Positions 5,796-17,967 of a DNA stretch of 64,000 nucleotides are shown in pieces. Made by a program: the position numbers and the translations under genes. The stretch is from assembly GCF_000756655.1 (NCBI RefSeq), contig NZ_ARXU01000004.1, forward strand, positions 124,001-188,000, read 5' to 3'. Source of the stretch: Alcanivorax jadensis T9 (lineage in GTDB: Bacteria; Pseudomonadota; Gammaproteobacteria; Pseudomonadales; Alcanivoracaceae). Within the stretch, counting starts at the first letter, position 1; each line of letters begins with the position of its first letter. The notes below the pieces were generated by a model, which made no database searches, was not told the DNA's origin, and saw nothing but the letters and a program-made list of their open reading frames with translations.

Positions 5796-6788
5796 CTAGG
5801 TGCACTCCGCCCGTGTCGGATCCATCTTGCAGCGCACCTTGCGCAGCAGCCCGAGCATATCCTGGTCGTAATAGCCTTGGTCGCGCAGTTGGTTACGGGC
5901 TTCCTGCATCATCACTTCATATTCGTTTTTATCCGCATCCGGAATCTGCACCCACCAGCGCGGGTCGACCTTTTCGGCTTCCTTGTCTAGCTGTTCGGTA
6001 ATGCGATTCAGGTTGTTATAGAAATACTCGCGTGATTTCTGTGCCATGTCGGCGGGGAAGCGGTCTTTCTTGGCCACCAGCTGAATGGTCAGTTGAGCTA
6101 GCGGGTAGTCGATGATGCCGCCATCCGGGCTCAGGCCCTTGTAGAGCTCCAGCGCATCATAGGCCACCAGTGGAGCGGCGATGACATCGACCACGCCGTT
6201 GTTGAATTTGGTGGAGAAGTTGGTCACATCGGAACCCACCGGGGTCGCACCCACCTGGGAAACCAGAATGGCCTGGGTTTCATCATATTCCAGCACTGCC
6301 ACACGCTTCCCGGCTGCCTTGGCCAGAGAGTTGATTTCCCGGTCGTTCACGAAGACATAGGCGGCACCGGCCGGGGCCACACCCATGATCTGATAGGAAC
6401 CCTGGGAAAGCTTGTCGGCAGTTTGCGGGTGCGCCAGCACTTTCAGGACCACGTTCATGTGTTCCATGGAGGGAATGGCGCCGATGGAATCGATGGTGCC
6501 GGCGTACTTGTTGAAGTTACGACCGCGAATACCGGTGATCAGGGCAGCATCGCAGACACCAGCTTTGAGATCTTCAGCGGCAATGGCTTCGTTGGTATGG
6601 GGAATCAACTCCACTTCCAGGTCCCAGGCCAAAGCGGCGGCCTGCCAGTCCTTCATGGCACTCATCACCGGCCCCACATTGCCGACGATATCGAAGACAC
6701 AGACCTTGCGTTTGATGGATTCGGCCTGGGCGGGCAGTGAGATGGTAAGGGCTAAGGCCGTAGCGACGGCAGTAATCAACTTCTTCAT
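5796..6788 (-). CDS. Periplasmic AdeT/DctP-like solute-binding protein (paralogue 1)
   Basis: A 330-residue exported protein. It has a signal peptide (MKKLITAVATALALTISLPAQA) and then a TRAP-receptor-like fold with family blocks KVCVFD, LKAGVCDAALITGIRGR, GVAPAGAAYVFVNDR, YPLAQL, and a C-terminal RKVRCKMDPTRAEC. Four conserved cysteines suggest two disulfides. The family includes Acinetobacter AdeT1/AdeT2, published as efflux-related, but the sequence looks like a binding protein, not a pump. This copy lacks the extra N-terminal region of the three tandem paralogues near 30 kb. ATG follows AGGAAGGA. It lies downstream of the AraC-type gene on the same strand, 132 bases away. The ligand is unknown. 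Confidence 0.85.
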   Translation of the reverse strand: MKKLITAVATALALTISLPAQAESIKRKVCVFDIVGNVGPVMSAMKDWQAAALAWDLEVELIPHTNEAIAAEDLKAGVCDAALITGIRGRNFNKYAGTIDSIGAIPSMEHMNVVLKVLAHPQTADKLSQGSYQIMGVAPAGAAYVFVNDREINSLAKAAGKRVAVLEYDETQAILVSQVGATPVGSDVTNFSTKFNNGVVDVIAAPLVAYDALELYKGLSPDGGIIDYPLAQLTIQLVAKKDRFPADMAQKSREYFYNNLNRITEQLDKEAEKVDPRWWVQIPDADKNEYEVMMQEARNQLRDQGYYDQDMLGLLRKVRCKMDPTRAECT

Positions 6789-6920
6789 GGATCCTTCCTG
6801 CTTGTTATTACTGGTATGAAGTATGCAGATGTGACCTTGATAGTAGTGGGAAAGATCCGGAAATGGAAAAGCCGAAGCGCTTCGGGCTGAAGCGTTCAGG
6901 TCAATTCCTGTTAATTCCTG

Positions 6921-7934
6921 TCATGGGCGGCTGGTGCGGCGGACCTCTCCCGGGGTGCGTCCCGTCCAGCTGCGGTAGGCCTTGCTGAAGCTGGCCTGGT
7001 CACTGTAACCGAGCTGGTCGGCGATTTTCTCCAGCGGCATGTCCGTTTCCAGTAGATAGCGGCTTGCGAAGGTTTCGCGGATGTCATTGCGGATGCCGCT
7101 GAAGGCAAAACCGGCCAGGCCCAGGTGACGTCGTACTGAGCGCGTGCTCATGCCCAGTTTCTGGGCTACTCGCTCCAGGGTGCTGTCACGTCCTGGAGCG
7201 TTCATGATTTCGTGGCGCACCTTGATGACTACCTTGAGACTGTCATCGCCCTGGATCTGCTCCCGGGAACGGGCGGCGGCCAAGTAGGTGGCCACGCTGG
7301 CATCGTCATCCCTGGCCTGACGTCCCGATAGCGGCATCAACACCTGATTGTGTGGCCGGTTGAACTTTACCTCTACGCCGTCGGCCAGCCTCTGCCAGGC
7401 GAGACTGTTGCCGGGACAGGCAAAATCAAATTCGAACGTGAACGTTCGACAGACCAGTGATGCCAGTGCATGGATGCTGCCCATGTAGATATTGGCCACC
7501 ATGGGTTTAAGTTTTTTCAGGTCCCAGTTGTCATGCAGGCGGATGGAAATCAGTTCGCCAGTGCAGTGGATTTCCATATCCATAAGTGGCAACGATACCC
7601 GCAGGTACTGCACCACCATGTTCACCAGCTTGCGATAATCCTGTTGTCGCAGCAGCGCAAATCCGAACAGCCCATGACCTTGCAGGTCCAGCTCCTGACC
7701 GAAACGAAACGGTGCGGTGTGATCGTTGAGTAGACGGTTGCCGTTGTGTAGCAGATGTTGCACTTGCCGCATGGAAAGATAGGCATCCGGGTTGTCGAGA
7801 ATATGGCTATCTATGCCTGATCCTTCGAGCACTACCGTGCCACTAATTCCGTGTTTTTGTACGAACCGCAAAAAGCGGCGGGCATAACGGACTGAGATGA
7901 GAGGAACGTCGAGTGCCATTCCGTCGTTTTTCAT
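6921..7934 (-). CDS. AraC-family transcriptional regulator (OruR-like)
   Basis: About 337 residues. The N-terminal part resembles the arabinose-binding-type domain of the OruR/AraC group. The C-terminal 100 residues hold the two helix-turn-helix motifs, including RVAQKLGMSTRSVRRHL and the signature IADQLGYSDQASFSKAYRSWTGRTPGEVRR. It should bind DNA as an effector-responsive regulator. It is divergent from the GH3/RND operon at 8127 and upstream of the binding protein at 5796, so it could control either. The start is uncertain: ATG 7934 is taken, ATG 7919 (MALDVP) or TTG 7976 are alternatives, and none has a strong SD. Confidence 0.88.
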   Translation of the reverse strand: MKNDGMALDVPLISVRYARRFLRFVQKHGISGTVVLEGSGIDSHILDNPDAYLSMRQVQHLLHNGNRLLNDHTAPFRFGQELDLQGHGLFGFALLRQQDYRKLVNMVVQYLRVSLPLMDMEIHCTGELISIRLHDNWDLKKLKPMVANIYMGSIHALASLVCRTFTFEFDFACPGNSLAWQRLADGVEVKFNRPHNQVLMPLSGRQARDDDASVATYLAAARSREQIQGDDSLKVVIKVRHEIMNAPGRDSTLERVAQKLGMSTRSVRRHLGLAGFAFSGIRNDIRETFASRYLLETDMPLEKIADQLGYSDQASFSKAYRSWTGRTPGEVRRTSRP

Positions 7935-8126
7935 TTTTATTATGCCTGATGTAGTTGTTGTTATGCTTGTGATCAAGCTCTCATTAGGCGGGCTGTCTTG
8001 CCGATTTTAAATGCTGCTTGCCCTTTTTAACAAAAAAATGGCCGCTTTAACTATTAAGTCGGTCACCTTCCATGGAGATGATGAGCCCCGCTTTTTTGTG
8101 CATAAAAATAATCATGGAGCAGAGAA

Positions 8127-8900
8127 ATGCAAAGGGAAAAAAAAGAAACCCTAAAAGCCCGTTATCTCCCCCTTTCCAAAGTATCGGTTCCCGTCATGCG
8201 AAGAATGTATGAGATTTACTCCGGGTACTACGAAAATATAAGTCTCGACGTTTTCTGCCGCGACATGGTGGAAAAAAGTGGTGTGATTCTGGTTGAGGAA
8301 AAACCGACCAAGCGCGTGGTCGGTTTTTCCACCTTAAAAACCCTGGATATGACCGTGGCTGGCCGCCAGGTAAAAGGGGTGTTTAGCGGTGACACCATCA
8401 TTGAAGAAAAGTACTGGGGTAGCCGAGCCCTGCAGATAACATTTTTCTTCCGAATGATCCGTGAAAAGTTGCGGCACCCTTTTCGTCCGCTGTTCTGGTT
8501 GCTGATATCAAAAGGCTATAAAACCTATTTGTTGATGGCGAATAACTTCCACAATTATTACCCGCATCCAGAAGGTAAAAGTGACGATCTTGCCCCCTTT
8601 GTGGATTCCTATTGTGAGCGTTTGTTTGCTGACTATTACTGTGAAGATAAAAAGTTGCTGGATTTCGGCGAGGGTTATACCCATCTGAAATCCAACGTGG
8701 CAAAAATTACCGAAGAAATGCGACAGGAAAACGAAAAAATTCAGTTTTTCGAAATACGGAATCCTACCTGGAACCGGGGAACCGAATTGCCTTGTATAGG
8801 GGAGATTAATCTTTCCCTGCTGGTGAGTTACCCGTTTTCCCTGTGGCGTAAACAACGAAGAAAAACAAAAACACAAGTTGCAGCTGTGGCCTGCGAATAA
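8127..8900 (+). CDS. Uncharacterised acyltransferase-like protein, head of GH3/RND operon
   Basis: A 257-residue cytoplasmic protein with no signal peptide. The order of elements suggests a GNAT/LuxI-like acyltransferase fold: VGFSTLKT strand, VKGVFSGDTIIEEKYWG turn, and ALQ-containing helix. I cannot identify catalytic residues. It is clearly AT-richer than the genes that follow, with many AAA/TTT codons, which suggests a separate origin. ATG at 8127 follows GGAGCAGAG. The next gene starts 13 bases after its stop. It is probably one enzyme of the pathway encoded by the downstream genes. Confidence 0.6.
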   Translation: MQREKKETLKARYLPLSKVSVPVMRRMYEIYSGYYENISLDVFCRDMVEKSGVILVEEKPTKRVVGFSTLKTLDMTVAGRQVKGVFSGDTIIEEKYWGSRALQITFFFRMIREKLRHPFRPLFWLLISKGYKTYLLMANNFHNYYPHPEGKSDDLAPFVDSYCERLFADYYCEDKKLLDFGEGYTHLKSNVAKITEEMRQENEKIQFFEIRNPTWNRGTELPCIGEINLSLLVSYPFSLWRKQRRKTKTQVAAVACE

Positions 8901-8913
8901 CACCGGGGTAACC

Positions 8914-10539
8914 ATGTTTGGACATCGTTTGCTCAAAATGGCCGCCTGGCCGGGGGAGCGGCGCTTTGCCGCCGGGCGGGCACATCTGGAAAGCGTACAA
9001 AGGCAAAAACTGGCGCTGTTGCTGCGCAAGGTGGCAGCCTGTGAGGCCGGGCAGCGCCAGGGGGTAGCGGCACACTGGCAATGGGAAACCTTTGCCGAGC
9101 AGGTGCCGGTAAGTGACTACGACCACTGGCGTGACCCGGTCGATCGTGCCCGCGAGTCCGGCGGTAACGCCCTGATCCAGTCTCCAGTGGTTCGCTACCA
9201 GCCCACCAGCGGGTCCACCTCGGCGATCAAGTGGATTCCCTATACCCGCCATTTTCTATCGGAGCTGGATAACGCCATCAGCCCCTGGATTGTGGATCTG
9301 TATCGTCAGTTCCCCAGGCTCAGACAGGGCCGTCACTACTGGTCCATGTCCTGGGTGCCCACCTCGCTGCGTGACAACATGCGTGAGGATATCAATGACG
9401 ATATTCAGCTCATGTCCATGGGCAAGCGCCTGCTGGCCGGTGCGACCCAGGCGGTTCCCCAGGATGTGTCTCTGGCGCGTACGTCCGAGGATTCCCTGTT
9501 TGCCACGCTGGCCTATCTGATCAGTGATTCCTCCCTGTCGATGATGTCCATCTGGAGCCCCACCTTTGGATTGGGCTTGCTCAAATCCATGGCGATGTGG
9601 CGTGAGGAATTGGCAGAGGTGTTGGCAACCGGCTCCTGGGGTAACCGCATGCTGGGCAGCAATACCCAGTCGTGCCCCCGATCCCCCCGAGGGGCCGAAC
9701 TGCTGCGCCAGTGGGATGGACGGTTGAGTGCGGATTTCTTTATGGCGTTGTGGCCGTCCCTGGCGCTCGTCAGCGCCTGGGATACCGCGGCATCTGGCCC
9801 CTGGGCCAGGCAGTTGCATGCCCTGTTGCCGCAGGCGGCGTTCCAGGGCAAGGGGCTGTGGGCGACAGAAGGGGTGGTCACCATTCCCTATCAGGGGCAA
9901 CACGCGCTGGCCTACCGCAGCCATGTGTATGAATTCCAGGATCCATCCGATGGCACTATCTATGCGCCATGGGAGCTGGAGCAGGGACAGCAGGTGATGC
10001 CCCTGCTCAGTACCGGCAGCGGCCTGTTGCGCTATCGGCTGAATGATCTGGTGCGAGTGGATGGTTTGCCTGGGGGAATTCCTGCTCTGACCTTCCTGGG
10101 GCGTGCCGGTACCACGGATATGGTTGGTGAAAAGCTGACTGCGGCGGCGCTGGATGCCGCCCTTGCCGAGGTCAGATTGCCGGCAAAAACCCTGCCGGTG
10201 TGCACAGTGGCCGTGGAGGATGCCGGTGAGGGTATTCCCGGTTATGTGTTGTTGCTGGAAGGGGAGAGCACGGAAAGTGAGAGAGTGGCAGGCGCTCTCG
10301 ACGCTGCCCTGCAGCAGCATTTCCATTACCAGCTGGCCCGCAATCTGGAGCAACTGGCACCGCTGCGCTGTGTGATTCACCGGGACATGCGTGAGCGGTA
10401 TCTGCAGCAATGCCGCGAGCGCGGCATGATCGAAGGCAACATCAAGATGGAGTCCTTGCAGTACTGGCCTGGAGTGTTGCCGCTATGGTTTGGCCACTCG
10501 CAGGCATCTGCTCGGGCAGTCGGGGAGGCGGTGCTGTGA
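8914..10539 (+). CDS. GH3-family acyl-acid amido synthetase
   Basis: About 541 residues, the full length of GH3 proteins. The plant family adenylates a carboxylic acid (e.g. auxin, jasmonate) and joins it to an amino acid. The ATP-binding motif TSGSTS lies near residues 98-103. Further motifs are WATEGVVTIP, a central YRLNDLVRV, and FLGRAGTTDMVGEKL, matching the adenylating core. In this operon it probably activates a fatty or other organic acid for amide formation; the substrate is inferred only. The ATG at 8914 (MFGHRLL) is preferred over an upstream in-frame ATG inside the previous gene. Its TGA overlaps the next GTG (GTGA). Confidence 0.85.
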   Translation: MFGHRLLKMAAWPGERRFAAGRAHLESVQRQKLALLLRKVAACEAGQRQGVAAHWQWETFAEQVPVSDYDHWRDPVDRARESGGNALIQSPVVRYQPTSGSTSAIKWIPYTRHFLSELDNAISPWIVDLYRQFPRLRQGRHYWSMSWVPTSLRDNMREDINDDIQLMSMGKRLLAGATQAVPQDVSLARTSEDSLFATLAYLISDSSLSMMSIWSPTFGLGLLKSMAMWREELAEVLATGSWGNRMLGSNTQSCPRSPRGAELLRQWDGRLSADFFMALWPSLALVSAWDTAASGPWARQLHALLPQAAFQGKGLWATEGVVTIPYQGQHALAYRSHVYEFQDPSDGTIYAPWELEQGQQVMPLLSTGSGLLRYRLNDLVRVDGLPGGIPALTFLGRAGTTDMVGEKLTAAALDAALAEVRLPAKTLPVCTVAVEDAGEGIPGYVLLLEGESTESERVAGALDAALQQHFHYQLARNLEQLAPLRCVIHRDMRERYLQQCRERGMIEGNIKMESLQYWPGVLPLWFGHSQASARAVGEAVL

Positions 10540-11627
10540 ATTACCGCATTCGCCAGGCCCGGGAGGAGGACAACGGCGCTATCCTGTCGCTGTTGCAAGG
10601 CACGCCTCAGCCCGGTGCTGTCACCCTGAATTTTGAGCGTAACCCGGATTACTTTCGTGGCGCCCGGGTGACTTGTGAAGAACCGGATGTATGGGTGGCC
10701 GAGCCCCGCGAGGGTGAGGGCCCGATTGGTGCGGTCTATAACGTGGGTTGGCGCCATGTGTGGGTAAACGGGCAGGCGAGGCCGGTGCGTTATGCCCACG
10801 ATCTGCGTATTTCGCCACAATGTCGCAACGGCATGATTCTGCATAGGCTTTTTCGCCAATTGCGCAAGCAACTGGGGGACGGTGAGTGGATGCAGACCAC
10901 GGTGTTGCGCGACAACATGGCGTCCCTGTCCACGGTGGCTAGTGGTCGTGCCGGGCTGCCCACCTACTATCCGTCGGGCACCATTGAAACCAGCATGCTT
11001 TATACGCGGGCTCGCCGCCGCAAACTGCCCGACGATGCGGTCATTCGCCAGACCGGTGAGGCAGATCTGGATGCCATTTCCCAGCTGCTGCGCTATCAAG
11101 GCTCCCAGAAACAGTTTTTCCCCTACTGGGATGTGTCTCGCGTTCGGGGTGATGCTTATTGCTACGGGCTCAGCCCGCGCAACTTTATCGGTTTGTGGAT
11201 CGGGGGAGTCCTGAAGGGGTTGATGGGTTTCTGGGATCAACAAGGCATCAAGCAGACTCGGGTGCTGGGCTATGCCCGCGGCATGGGGGTCATGCGCCAT
11301 CTTTACAACACTCACAGCCTGCTGCGCGGCGGCATGAAATTGCCGGCACCGGGCGGTGTGCTGTCCTACCTGACTCTGCACAGCCTGGTGGTGGAGGACA
11401 ATCGCCCGGAGCTGCTGCGGCTGTTGCTGGACGATGCCATCAGCCGCTTCCATGGTCACTACGATGCGCTGGTATGTGGCTTTTTTACCCAGGACCCGCT
11501 GGCCCGGGTGCCAGCGAGTTACCGTCGCAGGTTGTTGCTCAGCGATCATTTTCTGGTGAGCTATGACGGCGATCCGCGAGACCAGCTGGATGGGCGCCTT
11601 CCCTATGTGGAGGTCGCCCGCCTGTGA
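10536..11627 (+). CDS. Double GNAT-like acyltransferase protein
   Basis: A 363-residue soluble protein. The N-terminal 150 residues begin like GNAT enzymes (YRIRQAREEDNGAILSLL) and include a putative acyl-CoA-binding stretch around ISPQCRNGMILHRLF. A second, weaker GNAT-like unit starts at about residue 165 (IRQTGEADLDAISQLL). The substrate is unknown. GTG start overlaps the GH3 stop by four bases, and its own stop overlaps the next start in the same way. Translational coupling implies fixed stoichiometry with its neighbours. Overall function in the operon is inferred as acyl transfer. Confidence 0.7.
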   Translation: MNYRIRQAREEDNGAILSLLQGTPQPGAVTLNFERNPDYFRGARVTCEEPDVWVAEPREGEGPIGAVYNVGWRHVWVNGQARPVRYAHDLRISPQCRNGMILHRLFRQLRKQLGDGEWMQTTVLRDNMASLSTVASGRAGLPTYYPSGTIETSMLYTRARRRKLPDDAVIRQTGEADLDAISQLLRYQGSQKQFFPYWDVSRVRGDAYCYGLSPRNFIGLWIGGVLKGLMGFWDQQGIKQTRVLGYARGMGVMRHLYNTHSLLRGGMKLPAPGGVLSYLTLHSLVVEDNRPELLRLLLDDAISRFHGHYDALVCGFFTQDPLARVPASYRRRLLLSDHFLVSYDGDPRDQLDGRLPYVEVARL

Positions 11628-12583
11628 GTGCCAGCGCAACAGACTACATTGGCATGTGGTACCGGGCCCGCGCCCGGCTCGGTATTGATGACCGTATCGA
11701 GTTTATTTTCATCAATCCGGGCTCAGGCAAACGCCATACGGTGGCGCTGCGGCACCGGGACCATGATGGCGTGGGCGGGATCGCCGAGTCTCTCAAGCGC
11801 ATGGGCGTCCGGCAACCGCCCATGCCCCTCAGTCGCCAGACTCGTGCGCCATCTTTCTGGCGTCGCTGGCAGGCTCGACCGGAGCAGCGTCAACCACAGT
11901 CGCCCCCGTGGCGTATTTTCACCACCACTGTCGATGAGCAAGCCGACGAGCCCCTGGTGCAATGGCTAACGCCGCTGCAGACCCGTGCGTTACGGCAACG
12001 GGCGAAGGCGCAGCAGGTGTCACTCAACAGCCTCTTGCTGAAGGCTCTGCATCTGGCTGTAGCGGATACCCTGATGACCCATGCAAGCCCGATAAGCTGG
12101 TGCTTTCCGGTGAACATGCGCGGAGTGGTGCCGATGGGGCGACCAGACATGAATCTGTCCAGCGCATTTTATATGACGGTGGACAGTGACGACTCGCTGA
12201 CGCACCTGGATCACACCATTCGCAGCTATCTGAAAGCCAATATTCACTGGCGCTATTGGCACCTTGCTCGCATTGGTCGTCTGGTTGGTCAGCGGGGTGT
12301 GGACTGGTTATGTGGACGTTTACTCAACGGCGCCCAGCACGGTGGCTCCTTTTCCAATCTGGGCGAGTGGCAGATCGACTTCGTCTCTGGCGGCCTGGCT
12401 CCCGACACCGTGTTCGCTTGCTGTGGCCCGGGAAGTCCCACTCATCCGGTTGCCAACGGCATGATGATTGTTAACGGCAGCTTGAGCCTGGCGCTGAAGC
12501 TACACCCCTCTCTGGGTGCGTCAGAGGCAGTGGTGCAGGAGTGCCTGCAACGCTGGGTTGATGAGCTGGGTGTGACGGCATGA
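11624..12583 (+). CDS. Short condensation-type (HHxxxD-like) acyltransferase
   Basis: 319 residues that read like the latter part of CoA-dependent/condensation-superfamily acyltransferases (PapA5, alcohol acetyltransferases). The region CFPVNMRG...NLSSAFYM and the late SNLGEW segment match the core of that fold. The catalytic HHxxxDG motif appears as R43-H44-x3-D48-G49, keeping the catalytic second His and the Asp. It lies only about 40 residues from the N-terminus instead of about 140, so the usual N-terminal subdomain is shortened. It may join acyl groups to the GH3 product. GTG start overlaps the upstream stop; TGA overlaps the downstream ATG. Confidence 0.62.
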   Translation: MSASATDYIGMWYRARARLGIDDRIEFIFINPGSGKRHTVALRHRDHDGVGGIAESLKRMGVRQPPMPLSRQTRAPSFWRRWQARPEQRQPQSPPWRIFTTTVDEQADEPLVQWLTPLQTRALRQRAKAQQVSLNSLLLKALHLAVADTLMTHASPISWCFPVNMRGVVPMGRPDMNLSSAFYMTVDSDDSLTHLDHTIRSYLKANIHWRYWHLARIGRLVGQRGVDWLCGRLLNGAQHGGSFSNLGEWQIDFVSGGLAPDTVFACCGPGSPTHPVANGMMIVNGSLSLALKLHPSLGASEAVVQECLQRWVDELGVTA

Positions 12584-13743
12584 AACGAATTCTCAGTCTG
12601 CGCGCGTTGGTGGCCCTGCTGGCTACCCTGGCCATGGGACTGGCGGTGACTGCGCTGTATCTGGTGCCGCCGGCTACGCCCACCCTGAAAACGGAAGAAA
12701 CCATACTCGCGCTGGATACCTGGCAAGTGGAATGGAAAGACGTGGTGATCCCGGTGCACAGCCAGGGCCTGGTTCGCGCCCGTCACGAATTGCCCATGAG
12801 CCTGGAAGTCTCTGGCCGGGTGCAGGAGGTGTCGCCGCTGCTGGCGGACGGGGGGCGTGTGACTGCCGACGAGGTATTGCTGAAGCTGGACCCGGAGCCC
12901 TTTGCCCTGGACGTAACCGCCCAGCAGAACGCGGTCCACGCGGCGCGTCTGCATCTGGAAGAAACCCGGGCGCGTGCGCGGGTGTCCGGGTCCTCCAAAC
13001 GGTCTTCCGCCCTGGGCCGTTTCGAGCCACAACTGGACGAAGCCAACAGCCGGCTGGCCTCTGCTCGTGCCGGGCTACGTCAGGCCCAGCGTAACCAGGA
13101 ACAGACCGAGCTGGTGGCGCCAATCAGCGGGCGGCTCAAAGCGGTGCAGGTGATGGCCGGTCAGCAGATTCAGGCCGGTAGTGTGCTGGCCCGGTTATAT
13201 CAGGAGGACAGGGTGGAAGTGCGTCTGCCGGTCCGCGATGAATGGCTGGCGCTGCTCGGCATCATGCCCGGCGATGAAACGACCCTGCGGCAGGTCAACG
13301 TGACCTTGCGCGGGCGTTTTGCCGGCCGCGATGGTCAGTGGCAGGGCAAGGTGGTGCGTCGCGAGGGTGGCTTGAACAAGAACCGCATGATGCATCTGAT
13401 CGTCCAGGTCACCAATTCGGAAGATGGCCTGCCCCTGGAACCCGGGGTGCTGGTGCAGGCGGAGCTGCGCGGAGCGCCGACGCGCAACGTGGCAATGCTG
13501 CCCCGGGCGGCCCAGGCCGGCGAAAATACCGTCTGGGTACTGGATAAGGACAAGCGCTTGCGTCGTCAGTCGGTGGCAGTGCTGCATCACGATGACGACT
13601 ACCTGTACCTGCACGATGGGGTAACAGCGTCGTCCCGGGTGGTGCTGGCCGGTGACCTGCAACTGCTGGAAGGCATGCGCATCGATCCCCGCGTTCCTGC
13701 CAGTGGGCTGGCGGACCGTTCTGCCGCTGGGACAGCGCTGTGA
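12580..13743 (+). CDS. RND efflux periplasmic adaptor (membrane fusion protein)
   Basis: 387 residues. An N-terminal membrane anchor (ALVALLATLAMGLAVTALYL) is followed by a lipoyl-like hairpin half (VSGRVQEVSPLLADGGRVTADEVLLKLD), a coiled-coil with many Ala/Arg/Glu, the second lipoyl half (LVAPISGRLKAVQVMAGQQIQAGS), and a beta-barrel. This is the HlyD/MFP order. It links the RND pump to an outer-membrane channel. No OMF gene is in the operon, so a TolC-type channel encoded elsewhere is likely. ATGA overlaps on both sides couple it to the acyltransferase and the pump. Confidence 0.9.
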   Translation: MKRILSLRALVALLATLAMGLAVTALYLVPPATPTLKTEETILALDTWQVEWKDVVIPVHSQGLVRARHELPMSLEVSGRVQEVSPLLADGGRVTADEVLLKLDPEPFALDVTAQQNAVHAARLHLEETRARARVSGSSKRSSALGRFEPQLDEANSRLASARAGLRQAQRNQEQTELVAPISGRLKAVQVMAGQQIQAGSVLARLYQEDRVEVRLPVRDEWLALLGIMPGDETTLRQVNVTLRGRFAGRDGQWQGKVVRREGGLNKNRMMHLIVQVTNSEDGLPLEPGVLVQAELRGAPTRNVAMLPRAAQAGENTVWVLDKDKRLRRQSVAVLHHDDDYLYLHDGVTASSRVVLAGDLQLLEGMRIDPRVPASGLADRSAAGTAL

Positions 13744-16700
13744 ATCGCAGCATTGCCTGGTTCGCTCGTAACGGTGCAGTGGCCAACCTGCTGATGATTA
13801 CCCTGCTGCTGGCCGGGTTGATGGCCATTCCCCATACCCGCCAGGAAACCCTGCCCAACGTGCCGCTGGACCGTATCGGCATCTATGTGGCCTGGCCACA
13901 GGCCACTCCGGAAAGCGTGGAAGCCATGGTCTGCACGCCGGTGGAAACCGCCATCGACGATGTGGAAGGCGGTACCGAGCTGATCAGTGAAGCCCGTGAG
14001 GGGCTCTGTTCGGTGCAACTGGACGTGCTCAAGGGCCATGATACCCGCGCCGTGCTGGAACAGATCCGTACTCGCCTGGAAGGGCTGGACAGCTTGCCCG
14101 GCGACGCCGAACGGCCCCGGGTGCAGGAGCTGATCGTGCGCAACCGGGTGGTGCGCCTGCTGCTCAGTGGCAGCCTGTCGCGCCAGGATATCTATCAGTT
14201 GGCCCACCAGGTACGCCGACAGCTGCTTAATCACGATGCGGTCTCCAGCGTGGATATCGAGAACCTGCCGGAACGGGAAATGGCGCTGACCGTGGCGCGG
14301 GATGATCTCTACCGCTACCAGCTCACTCTGGAAGGCATGGCCGCCGCAGCCCGCGAGAGTGTGGAGCGGATTGCCGGCGGCTTGTTGCGCAGCGACCGGG
14401 GCGACTGGCTGCTGCAGACCGGTCAGCAGCCGGGGGATGCCGCTGCCTATGAGCAGCTGGTGATCCGCCAGTCGGAGCAGGGCGATCTGTTGCGGCTGGG
14501 AGACGTGGCGCAAATCGAGGATGGGTTCTCCCGGGACAGCCAGGCCGCCTGGCTGGACGGTAAGCCGGCAGTGGCCCTGGATGTGTACCGGGTGGGCGAT
14601 CAGAACGTGCTGGACGTGGCCGGCGCAGTGAGCGGCTACCTGCAGGAGGCGGAATTACCCCGCGGCGTGGCCCTGCGGGTGTGGAGTGATGATGCCGCTC
14701 AGTTCCGCGAACGCTCCCACCTGTTGTGGCGTAATGCGTTGCAGGGGCTGGTGTTGCTGACGCTGATGCTGGGGGTGTTTCTCACCCTGCGCCTGGCCGG
14801 CTGGGTGGCGCTGGGGATTCCGGTGTGCATGCTGGGGGCCTGCGCCTTGCTGCCGGTACTGGGGGAATCATTCAACACCATTTCCCTGTTCGCCTTTATT
14901 CTGGTGCTGGGCATCGTGGTGGATGATGCGGTGATCGTCGGCGAGAGTATCGACCATCAGCGCCGCCAGGGTGGGATGAGCGGCCAGGAGGCGGCCATTG
15001 CCGGCGCCCAGCGGGTATCACGGCCGATCCTGTTTGCGGTGCTGACCACCCTGTTTGCCTTTGCGCCCCTGCTGTTCCTGCCGGGGCCGGAAGGGGCCTT
15101 GATGCGGGTGATCCCCATCGTTTCCATGGCAATTCTGGTGCTGTCGCTGGTGGAATCCCTGTGGATTCTGCCTTCCCACCTCAGCTATGACCGCCCGGCC
15201 CGGGGCATCTGGCGCCAGTCCGAGCAGCTCTCCACCCGTATCAACGCCGGGCTGGACCGCTGGCTGGAATACCGCGCCCGGCCGTTGCTGCGCCGCGCCC
15301 TGCGCTGGCGCTATGTGCTGGTGGTGGTGTTTGTTGGGCTGTTTATTTTCTGCTGCGCCCTGGTCAACAGCGGTTGGCTGACCATGGTGCTGTTCTCCCG
15401 GGTGGAAGGAGACCGGGTGATGGCGGAGGTGGTGTTTCCGCAGGGTACCGGCGAGGCGCGGCTGCTGCGCGAAGTGCAGGCCCTGGAGGGCTCCGCCCGC
15501 AAGCTGTCGGCGCAGTTGCAGGCTGACGATCAGCCTGTGACCGTAGATGCGGTGTTCGCCGAGCAAGGGGTACGCCAGAAAACCTCCAATGCCCGCGATC
15601 CGGGGGCCCGTTTCCGGGTGCGGGTGACTCTGGCCATTGGCGGAGATACCAGTGCCCTGCCGCCCCGGGAGATGGCCAGCCTGTGGCGTGACCAGCACGG
15701 GCCCATTGCCGATGCCCTGTCGGTAAAATTCCACGCCAGCCTGATGCAGGTGAAACCGGACATTCACGTCAATCTGTTCCACCCGGATCTGGGCACGTTG
15801 CAGCGGTTGAGTGAGCAGACAGCGCTGGCCCTGTCACGCATGGAAGGCGTCCATGAAGTGGCCAATAACCTGCATGCCCGGCGCACCATCGTCGATATCG
15901 GCCTGCGTGAGGAGGGTAAGCTGGCCGGTCTGCGTGCGGAGCAACTAGGCTTGCAGATCCGCAATGCCTTCCACGGCATCGAGCTGGATCGCTGGTTTGA
16001 ACAGGATCAGGAAGTGCCGGTGATGCTGCGTCTGGCCAGCGGCGACAGCCGCCGCATCAGCGACCTGGAACGGTTACCGGTGCAGCTGCCGGATGGGGAG
16101 ATCACCGTGCTGGCGGCGGTGGCGGACCTGAACCGGCGCCAGGTGCCGGCCATGATCAGTCACTACGATGGCCGCCGTAGTGCCACCGTCAGTGCCTTCG
16201 TGGATGAGCACATGACCTCTCCGGCTCAGGTGATGACGGCGTTGCGCGAACAAGTGCTGGCGCCCATGCAGACAGCGGATGAGCAGGCCGGCTGGACGGT
16301 GGCCGGCAAGCAGGCGGCGATTCAGGATTTTCTCGATCATCTGTCGATCAGCTACCTGATCGCCCTGGCCGCAATTTTCTTCCTGCTCACTGTGCTGTTC
16401 GGCGGCTACGGCCAGCCACTGCTGGTGATGGCGGCGATTCCCTTTGGGATGGTGGGGGCCTTCATGGGGCACTTCCTGCTGGGCTACAGCCTGACGTTGT
16501 GGTCGCTGGTGGGGGTGATTGCGGTGAGCGGGGTGGTGGTCAACGACAACCTGGTTCTGATTGATGCTATCAACAGCTTCAGGGCTCACGGCATGCGCTT
16601 GCGCGATGCGGTAATCGAAGGCGTGAGTGGTCGATTGCGACCGGTGATGTTGACGTCTATCACCACCTTTGCCGGGGTCGCGCCGTTGATGCTGGAAACC

Positions 16701-17021
16701 AGTGTTCAGGCCCGCTTCCTGATCCCCATGGCGGTGTCCCTGGCCTTCGGCGTGCTGTTTGCGACGTTGGTGAGCCTGTTACTGGTGCCTTGCCTGCTGG
16801 TGGTCGGCCATGACGTGCGAGCTTTGCAGCAGCGCTGGCTGGCCCGCTGGCGGGCACCGGAGGTTTCGGAGGACGATAGCGTGGAGGTGGCCTATGAACG
16901 GGGCCGCCTGACCGCCTGGTGGGTTACCGCTAATCCCTATGAAGACCCTGTTCTGCATTCGGCATGGGAAGCGGGACGGCAGGATCAGGGGGCTGCCAGC
17001 GACGCTACCGAACACATGTAG
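13740..17021 (+). CDS. RND efflux permease
   Basis: 1093-residue inner-membrane proton-driven pump. TM1 starts at about residue 14. Two large periplasmic domains sit between TM1-2 and TM7-8. TM4 carries GIVVDDAVIVGESIDHQR, with the paired aspartates used for proton relay. The second half has VVVNDNLVLIDAIN in TM10 and RLRPVMLTSITTFAGVAPLM. The cytoplasmic tail is acidic and longer than usual (about 50 residues after TM12). It is the last gene of the operon; a terminator follows at 17162. Its cargo is inferred to be the product of the upstream enzymes rather than a drug. Confidence 0.93.
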   Translation: MNRSIAWFARNGAVANLLMITLLLAGLMAIPHTRQETLPNVPLDRIGIYVAWPQATPESVEAMVCTPVETAIDDVEGGTELISEAREGLCSVQLDVLKGHDTRAVLEQIRTRLEGLDSLPGDAERPRVQELIVRNRVVRLLLSGSLSRQDIYQLAHQVRRQLLNHDAVSSVDIENLPEREMALTVARDDLYRYQLTLEGMAAAARESVERIAGGLLRSDRGDWLLQTGQQPGDAAAYEQLVIRQSEQGDLLRLGDVAQIEDGFSRDSQAAWLDGKPAVALDVYRVGDQNVLDVAGAVSGYLQEAELPRGVALRVWSDDAAQFRERSHLLWRNALQGLVLLTLMLGVFLTLRLAGWVALGIPVCMLGACALLPVLGESFNTISLFAFILVLGIVVDDAVIVGESIDHQRRQGGMSGQEAAIAGAQRVSRPILFAVLTTLFAFAPLLFLPGPEGALMRVIPIVSMAILVLSLVESLWILPSHLSYDRPARGIWRQSEQLSTRINAGLDRWLEYRARPLLRRALRWRYVLVVVFVGLFIFCCALVNSGWLTMVLFSRVEGDRVMAEVVFPQGTGEARLLREVQALEGSARKLSAQLQADDQPVTVDAVFAEQGVRQKTSNARDPGARFRVRVTLAIGGDTSALPPREMASLWRDQHGPIADALSVKFHASLMQVKPDIHVNLFHPDLGTLQRLSEQTALALSRMEGVHEVANNLHARRTIVDIGLREEGKLAGLRAEQLGLQIRNAFHGIELDRWFEQDQEVPVMLRLASGDSRRISDLERLPVQLPDGEITVLAAVADLNRRQVPAMISHYDGRRSATVSAFVDEHMTSPAQVMTALREQVLAPMQTADEQAGWTVAGKQAAIQDFLDHLSISYLIALAAIFFLLTVLFGGYGQPLLVMAAIPFGMVGAFMGHFLLGYSLTLWSLVGVIAVSGVVVNDNLVLIDAINSFRAHGMRLRDAVIEGVSGRLRPVMLTSITTFAGVAPLMLETSVQARFLIPMAVSLAFGVLFATLVSLLLVPCLLVVGHDVRALQQRWLARWRAPEVSEDDSVEVAYERGRLTAWWVTANPYEDPVLHSAWEAGRQDQGAASDATEHM

Positions 17022-17161
17022 AAGAAAGCCTGTTGGGGATGCTCAACGCCGCGAGTGACGAGCTGCGAGCAGTGAACGCCGGTTTTCGTAACTGGAAACT
17101 CGTGCCTCGCTACTTTCGTCAGCTGCCTGGGCTATTGGCCATGCTGAATGGGGCTGCCCAC

Positions 17162-17197
17162 AAAAAAGCCCGACCCGGTTTCCCGGGTCGGGCTTTT
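17162..17197. terminator. Bidirectional terminator
   Basis: A-rich/T-rich flanked perfect stem AAAAGCCCGACCCGG/CCGGGTCGGGCTTTT between the convergent RND permease and gpmA genes. It can end transcripts from both sides. Confidence 0.92.
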
Positions 17198-17220
17198 GAG
17201 TCAGGCCGTCGGCGTTTTGC

Positions 17221-17967
17221 TTACGCCTTGCCCTGATTCGCCACGGCTTCGGCAGCCTTTGCTACTTCCTCGGCGTCGCCCAGGTAGTAGTTCTTGATGG
17301 GCTTCAGGTTGTCATCCAGCTCGTAGACCATCGGCACGCCGGTGGGGATGTTGAGCTTGACGATTTCCTCGTCGGAAATGTCGCCAAGATATTTCACCAG
17401 TGCCCGCAGGCTGTTGCCGTGGGCGCAGATCAATACCTGCTTGCCGGCTTCGACCTGCGGCTTGATCTCGCTTTCGAAGTAGGGCACGAAGCGATCCACG
17501 GTGTCCTTGAGGCTTTCGGACAGGGGGATCTCGTTCTCGCTGAGGCCCTTGTATACCCGGAAGTTGCCGGCGTAGCGTTCGTCGTCGCGCTCCATCTTCG
17601 GCGGCGGGGTGTCGTAGCTGCGGCGCCAGATATGCACCTGATCGTCGCCGTACTTGGCGGCGGTTTCCGCCTTGTTCAGACCCTGCAGGGCGCCGTAGTG
17701 GCGTTCATTCAGACGGTAATCGCGGATCACCGGAATCCACATCTGATCCATGTTGTCGAGGATGGACCACAGGGTGCGGATGGCGCGCTTGAGCACGGAG
17801 GTGTAAGCCACATCGAACTCAAAGCCTGCTTCCTTCAGCAATTCGCCGGCCGTGCGGGCTTCCTCGCGGCCCTGATCAGTGAGATCCACGTCTTTCCAGC
17901 CGGTGAAACGGTTTTCCTTGTTCCAAACGCTTTGGCCATGGCGGACCAGTACCAGTTTCGTGCTCAT
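17221..17967 (-). CDS. gpmA: 2,3-bisphosphoglycerate-dependent phosphoglycerate mutase
   Basis: Interconverts 3- and 2-phosphoglycerate. The 248 residues fit the family. The start [18 protein letters not shown] holds the phosphohistidine His10 and the RHG motif; [15 protein letters not shown] follows, and [16 protein letters not shown] carries the second catalytic His. ATG 17967 is chosen because translation begins directly at the RHG strand and an AGGAAG lies upstream. It is monocistronic by appearance. Confidence 0.96.

Follow-up and report, generated by a model that had tools for sequence, protein, structure and literature searches.

A GH3-based route to amino-acid lipids was reported in 2025 from the planctomycete Singulisphaera acidiphila. 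According to the sections of that report drawn on here, OlsH forms N-acyl ornithine from a fatty acid, ATP and ornithine, and its authors suggest other amino acids for other bacterial GH3 enzymes; GH3-dependent synthesis of amino-acid lipids is in this respect already known (PMC12493201). The N-acyl amino acid synthases OlsB/GlsB and NasY/FeeM are related to GNAT proteins (portions of PMC11631085 and PMC12479983), and the term 'gh3' has 0 occurrences in the main text of the latter. Within Alcanivorax, excerpts of two articles describe the proline lipids of A. dieselolei, a lipoamino-acid surfactant of a close relative, and report that A. hongdengensis makes a lipopeptide of unknown structure (PMC6669457, PMC5174103); the excerpted text of the first, a 2019 review, states that how marine bacteria synthesise lipoamino-acid surfactants had not been described (PMC6669457). 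Here we describe a six-gene operon at positions 8127-17021 (plus strand) of a 64,000-nucleotide stretch of Alcanivorax jadensis T9 DNA (contig NZ_ARXU01000004.1, positions 124,001 to 188,000; this whole stretch is the window below). It encodes two GNAT-fold proteins (G1 and GNAT2), a GH3-type synthetase (GH3), a condensation-type protein (Cond) and an RND exporter pair, and we propose, with a probability of roughly 0.55, that it serves to build an acylated amino acid or amine and to carry this product out of the cytoplasm, control by an AraC-family protein being probable.

The likeness to OlsH/OlsI is that a bacterial GH3 enzyme starts an amino-acid lipid and a second acyltransferase follows (relevant sections of PMC12493201), as we predict here; the difference is that GH3 here has two GNAT proteins, a PapA-like protein and an exporter beside it, and none of the six operon proteins matches the OlsI-type alpha/beta-hydrolase family in Pfam at E<=0.1. 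The GH3 protein also stays below the OlsH equivalog model NF052613 (22.9 bits versus a cut-off of 620). As for OlsB/GlsB and NasY/FeeM, the two GNAT proteins differ from them in that PF13444 is not among the listed matches (E<=10) of G1 (25 members) or GNAT2 (24 members).

Layout of the operon

The six open reading frames lie on the plus strand at 8127..8900 (G1, a single-domain GNAT-fold protein of 257 amino acids outside any Pfam family), 8914..10539 (GH3, an acyl-acid amido synthetase of the adenylating, amide-forming type, 541 amino acids), 10536..11627 (GNAT2, a tandem-GNAT acyltransferase of 363 amino acids, with a GTG start at 10536), 11624..12583 (Cond, a shortened PapA/condensation-type acyltransferase, 319 amino acids), 12580..13743 (the RND periplasmic adaptor or membrane fusion protein, MFP, 387 amino acids) and 13740..17021 (the RND permease, AcrB type, 1093 amino acids). 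The likeliest start of GH3 is the ATG at 8914, which leaves a gap of 13 bases after the end of G1 at 8900. Four-base overlaps are read directly in the sequence as GTGA at 10536-10539, GTGA at 11624-11627 and ATGA at 12580-12583, and the MFP/RND overlap at 13740-13743 follows from the reading-frame coordinates. A preliminary description of this DNA had reported six genes on one strand with the last five chained by such overlaps, and both the reading frames and the sequence agree with it; its assignments of GH3, the RND adaptor and permease and the divergent AraC gene hold in Pfam searches, that of the adaptor also in NCBIfam.

Junctions were compared in 37 loci (33 from Alcanivoracaceae and four from Marinobacter), with starts chosen by script. 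Exact four-base overlaps occur at 21/36 placed GH3/GNAT2 junctions, 21/30 GNAT2/Cond junctions, 15/26 Cond/MFP junctions and 25/35 MFP/RND junctions, the 35 including four convergent pairs. Recurrence of the gene order and of the overlaps within the Alcanivoracaceae shows the arrangement to be more than chance.

Conservation in Alcanivoracaceae and Marinobacter

The host genome (3.63 Mb) has a single GH3 match; Alcanivorax species are the nearest named relatives, and an uncultured Alcanivorax sp. has a GH3 that is 95% identical. Searches of 46 Alcanivoracaceae genomes gave a GH3 match in 35, near full length in 34 (own genome included). Thirty-three loci outside the host genome were read (L051-L083). 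The adaptor and permease follow the core on the same strand in 28 of the 33, and one locus (L053) ends at a contig end, so that its downstream genes and Cond are cut off. Four Marinobacter loci (L044, L045, L046 and L048) have the order G1-GH3-GNAT2-MFP-RND, all four without Cond. The preliminary description had counted a consistent lack of RND genes at homologous loci as evidence against its proposal; they are present in 28/33 Alcanivoracaceae and 4/4 Marinobacter loci. Between the six proteins, pairwise identities show correlations of 0.94-0.97, which give weak support because shared ancestry is reflected as well as co-evolution.

Cond is found in 30/33 Alcanivoracaceae loci, being missing in L074 and L080 as well as cut off in L053. 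Absent from all four Marinobacter loci and from 2/33 Alcanivoracaceae loci, it is an accessory gene; the earlier inclusion of Cond in the operon holds at the window and at most Alcanivoracaceae loci, and does not extend to the core. The lasting core is G1-GH3-GNAT2, which the preliminary description had missed, together with the GNAT fold of G1.

One genome (G001) retains as its GH3 match only a scrap of 74 residues, and there the operon has evidently been lost, since remnants of GH3 and of the AraC gene sit between kept flanking genes (locus L084, flanked by an AdeT-like gene and gpmA). The GH3 remnant is 157 bases with 76% identity to window positions 10313-10469 (L084 about 9094-9248), the AraC remnant 67 bases with 73% identity (L084 about 9496-9562), and apart from such remnants the operon is gone.

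The GH3 enzyme and the condensation-type protein

GH3 matches PF03321 with 126.8 bits against a cut-off of 23.6 (E 1.4e-36), GH3_M and GH3_C are also over their cut-offs, and a profile search of solved structures finds plant GH3 enzymes (best 1.2e-13). Three nucleotide-binding motifs are kept in 18/18 aligned GH3 proteins, with invariant residues P97-T98-x-G100-S101...K106, G314-L-W-A-T-E319 and G370...Y374...D378, a set comparable to that given for OlsH and plant GH3 enzymes in the motif account of PMC12493201. The preliminary description had made its proposal depend on conservation of these active-site residues, and the invariance of all three motifs does not refute it. ATP-dependent amide formation by GH3 is predicted from its family. 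A recoded in-frame TGA was considered in the GH3 gene of four loci and rejected, the codon being an ordinary stop near the C-terminus (L068 and L071 were translated); in L069 and L070 the GH3 reading frames are of equal length, 536 amino acids.

Condensation and PapA enzymes usually carry an HHxxxDG motif and normally have a complete N-lobe. Cond shares with PapA5 and other condensation-fold O-acyltransferases a PapA_C match (31.6 bits versus a cut-off of 30; E<=0.1 in 17/20 members) and the HxxxDG motif, of which H44, D48 and G49 are invariant in 20/20; in a search of solved structures it matches PapA5 (1q9j) at E 0.0011. It differs in lacking the first histidine, the motif beginning at residue 43 with R, P or S and never H in 20 rows, and in a seemingly shortened N-lobe, which looks cut short because the motif of the window protein has just 42 residues ahead of it. 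The earlier term 'reduced' thus suits its short N-terminus. The top structure row for Cond, 4p99 (the MpAFP repeat protein, 4.6e-7), is taken as an artefact, being the sum of four 6.7-bit pieces.

The GNAT proteins and the likeness to N-myristoyltransferase

Neither G1 nor GNAT2 of the window has a Pfam match, and sequence searches of solved structures with either give chance-level rows. Their AlphaFold models contain one and two GNAT folds, respectively, in line with the earlier reading of the first gene as acyltransferase-like and of the other as double GNAT-like.

Over almost its whole length the GNAT2 model matches the tandem-GNAT fold of N-myristoyltransferase (NMT), at 10-12% identity in structural alignments. 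NMT uses its own C-terminal carboxylate as catalytic base, and active-site residues of human NMT1 include Asn246 and Thr282 (mechanistic passages of PMC7048800). GNAT2 likewise has a fixed C-terminal end: 37/37 distinct proteins share the same end column and the residues ARL. The two differ in that GNAT2 is bacterial, lies in an apparent biosynthetic operon and probably acts on a small molecule. Two GNAT domains, as in GNAT2, are also found in MAB_4324 (7q3a), MshD (1ozp) and a Clostridium glucosamine N-acetyltransferase (5kf1). FeeM/LuxI-type and FemX structures are not among the listed structural matches, which does not exclude them. The predicted likeness to NMT is newly seen here and was absent from the preliminary description.

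GNAT2-driven searches covered 369 genomes of the class, with matches in 8 (the host and 7 others), and 398 of the phylum, with matches in 5 (the host and 4 others, 2 of which had been read before). Outside the host genome, 11/11 matches adjoin a GH3.

The core outside the family and the exchange of exporters

Of 390 genomes searched for G1 across the order, 36 match; 20 regions were then read from 30 match rows outside the family. Counts from these searches, as from those with GNAT2, may be low, since their first stage scores only a few candidates per genome. GH3 matches in 15/20 of these regions and GNAT2 in 12/20, and all twelve with GNAT2 also hold GH3; G1 occurs without GH3 in 5/20, one of them at a contig end. 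Solitary G1 paralogues, with no GH3 match within ~17 kb, were seen at L116, L120, L127 and L128, and L120 and L128 have alike neighbours in different genomes.

We distinguish a close type, comprising 12 loci outside Alcanivoracaceae and Marinobacter that have G1, GNAT2 and a GH3 scoring >400 bits with the family model. An RND permease and MFP stand beside the core in seven of these (L115, L117, L119, L121, L122, L123 and L126), HlyD and MFS proteins in two (L118 and L129), and an MMPL protein in place of the RND pair in two more (L124 and L134). At L129 (3537-11756) the genes for HlyD, MFS, G1, GH3, a TolC-type OEP and GNAT2 stand in a row on one strand; judged by its genes, this amounts to a complete tripartite exporter arranged around the core. 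At L134 (about 6500-8600) both GH3 and G1 run across more than one reading frame, through either decay or sequencing error.

That the kind of exporter changes at distant loci supports the reading in which the operon both makes and exports its product. The preliminary description had proposed an acyl-amide conjugate exported by a dedicated RND pump; the RND linkage, the GH3 motifs and the exporter exchange favour synthesis with export, and the class of product stands as a prediction.

Loci with GH3 scores of 221-303 bits form a second cluster type, of which four were scanned with Pfam (L125, L132, L144 and L154). G1 and GH3 are present in all four and GNAT2 in L132, L144 and L154. Each encodes Rieske oxygenases. 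L125, L144 and L154 also have genes for a fatty acid hydroxylase or for desaturases, L154 has in addition a pair of B12 radical-SAM proteins, and L132 and L144 each encode a large membrane protein of the FG-GAP/NQR2/UnbV_ASPIC kind.

Proposed function

The directly supported part of our proposal consists of the arrangement of the genes, their families, the modelled folds, conservation and linkage. On this basis GH3 would use ATP to convert a free fatty acid (or an N-acyl amino acid) to an acyl-AMP and join it to an amine. GNAT2, as a small-molecule counterpart of NMT, would take an acyl chain from coenzyme A (CoA) or acyl carrier protein (ACP) and place it on an amine, the carboxylate at its own C-terminus serving as base; G1 may be its partner, or else another acyltransferase of the GNAT kind. 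At loci that have it, Cond would add a further acyl group as an ester, and the RND pair would carry the lipid to the outer membrane or the medium through a TolC-type channel encoded elsewhere; no outer-membrane channel is matched in Pfam among the six operon proteins. The divergent AraC protein probably controls the operon.

A wider form of this proposal is offered tentatively: G1-GH3-GNAT2 would be an undescribed core for double-amide or multiply acylated amine lipids, and GNAT2 a small-molecule bacterial counterpart of NMT in both architecture and mechanism (C-terminal carboxylate base). The core would have at least two uses, one an exported lipoamino-acid surfactant with exchangeable pumps in Alcanivorax, Marinobacter and relatives (perhaps including the A. 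dieselolei proline lipids), the other the second type, in which Rieske oxygenases, B12 radical-SAM enzymes or fatty-acid desaturases accompany it. No description of the G1 and GNAT2 families, of their tie to GH3, of the change of exporter or of the likeness to NMT was found in the openly licensed PubMed Central literature, searched partly by best-ranked titles, nor did that literature yield a pertinent paper on an Alcanivorax GH3 ('auxin-responsive') or a bacterial NMT homologue. The link to surfactants, proline lipids included, is circumstantial; the A. hongdengensis locus (L042) has all six genes. The operon is a concrete candidate in oil-degrading marine bacteria, with an exporter attached, and could supply the missing genes for lipoamino-acid surfactants. 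If GNAT2 does work like NMT, it would bear on the origin of eukaryotic NMT and offer a new acylation catalyst.

Several observations weigh against these proposals. At L068-L071 (L071 being the locus of genome G018) G1-GH3-GNAT2-Cond is kept and the adjoining RND pair is a different one, convergent and only 26-33% identical, and at L143, the twelfth locus of the close type, the list of open reading frames shows no evident adjoining exporter and GNAT2 is convergent with GH3. Foldseek does not clearly separate NMT from other tandem GNATs: E-values for 7q3a and 5kf1 are 4.2e-11 to 2.4e-10 (7q3a 4.2e-11) and for MshD 3.7e-10, and TM-scores normalised to the query are 0.54-0.61 for other tandem GNATs and 0.56-0.64 for the NMT rows. 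No NMT sequence match is listed for GNAT2 in PDB and Pfam searches at E<=10, in which filters drop weak matches, and the C-terminal residues 361-363 of the GNAT2 model have pLDDT < 50. In our reading of the alignments we see no clear CoA-binding loop of the usual GNAT kind in G1 or GNAT2, so that either or both may be inactive or depend on ACP instead. The substrates, product, number of acyl chains and destination given above are those expected from knowledge of the families.

It is possible, if rather unlikely, that the product is an amino-acid lipid for the outer membrane, carried there by RND or MMPL proteins, and not a secreted surfactant. Amino-acid lipids are bacterial membrane lipids (as stated in sections of PMC11631085), and replacement of the RND pair by MMPL in L124 and L134 would fit; the HlyD and MFS genes of L118 and L129, joined in L129 by the TolC-type gene of the same row, suit true secretion. 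In addition, PF13444, the family named for OlsB (same sections of PMC11631085), matches in 44/46 Alcanivoracaceae genomes, 42 of them strongly, so that another membrane aminolipid route may exist through a candidate OlsB; the same genes tell against our proposal in its simple form, as other aminolipids may be made too.

We consider it improbable that the carboxylic acid which GH3 couples to an amino acid is a non-fatty one, aryl or otherwise, giving a signal or a detoxified conjugate for a conjugate efflux pump. Plant GH3 enzymes act on hormones and are the best solved relatives, and an AraC regulator adjoins the operon, but two GNAT proteins, of which one resembles NMT, together with a PapA-like protein indicate acyl chains, and three scanned distant clusters contain fatty acid hydroxylase or desaturase genes. 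Lipidation of a protein or peptide by GNAT2 in the manner of NMT, with GH3 and the pump serving a related lipopeptide, is suggested by its architecture and C-terminus and is very improbable given its tie to GH3, a family of small-molecule enzymes.

Exporter genes, regulator and flanking sequence

The adaptor matches HlyD_3 (2.2e-11) and the NCBIfam RND_mfp model TIGR01730 (120.2 versus a cut-off of 94.9). The permease matches ACR_tran (PF00873) with 447.4 bits against a cut-off of 28 (E 1.2e-133) and reaches the cut-off of none of the 19 listed NCBIfam models (best 366.8 versus 1250).

The divergent AraC-family gene (6921..7934, minus strand) matches HTH_18 (7.6e-18) and Arabinose_bd; its start is uncertain, an ATG near 7934 being likelier than a TTG at 7976. 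An AraC-like gene is divergent at a distance of 176-326 bases in 28/33 Alcanivoracaceae loci. The sequence between the divergent genes (7935..8126) would be the control region common to both. Scans of 6850-17300 gave one promoter-like site, within this interval on the minus strand, compared with a mean of 2.9 in shuffles, and 10 terminator-like sites compared with 9.1, and we claim neither promoter nor terminator. Beside the operon, at 5796-6788, lies a gene for an AdeT1_2-type solute-binding protein, which is kept in 16/16 loci read from the genus outside the window, G001 included.

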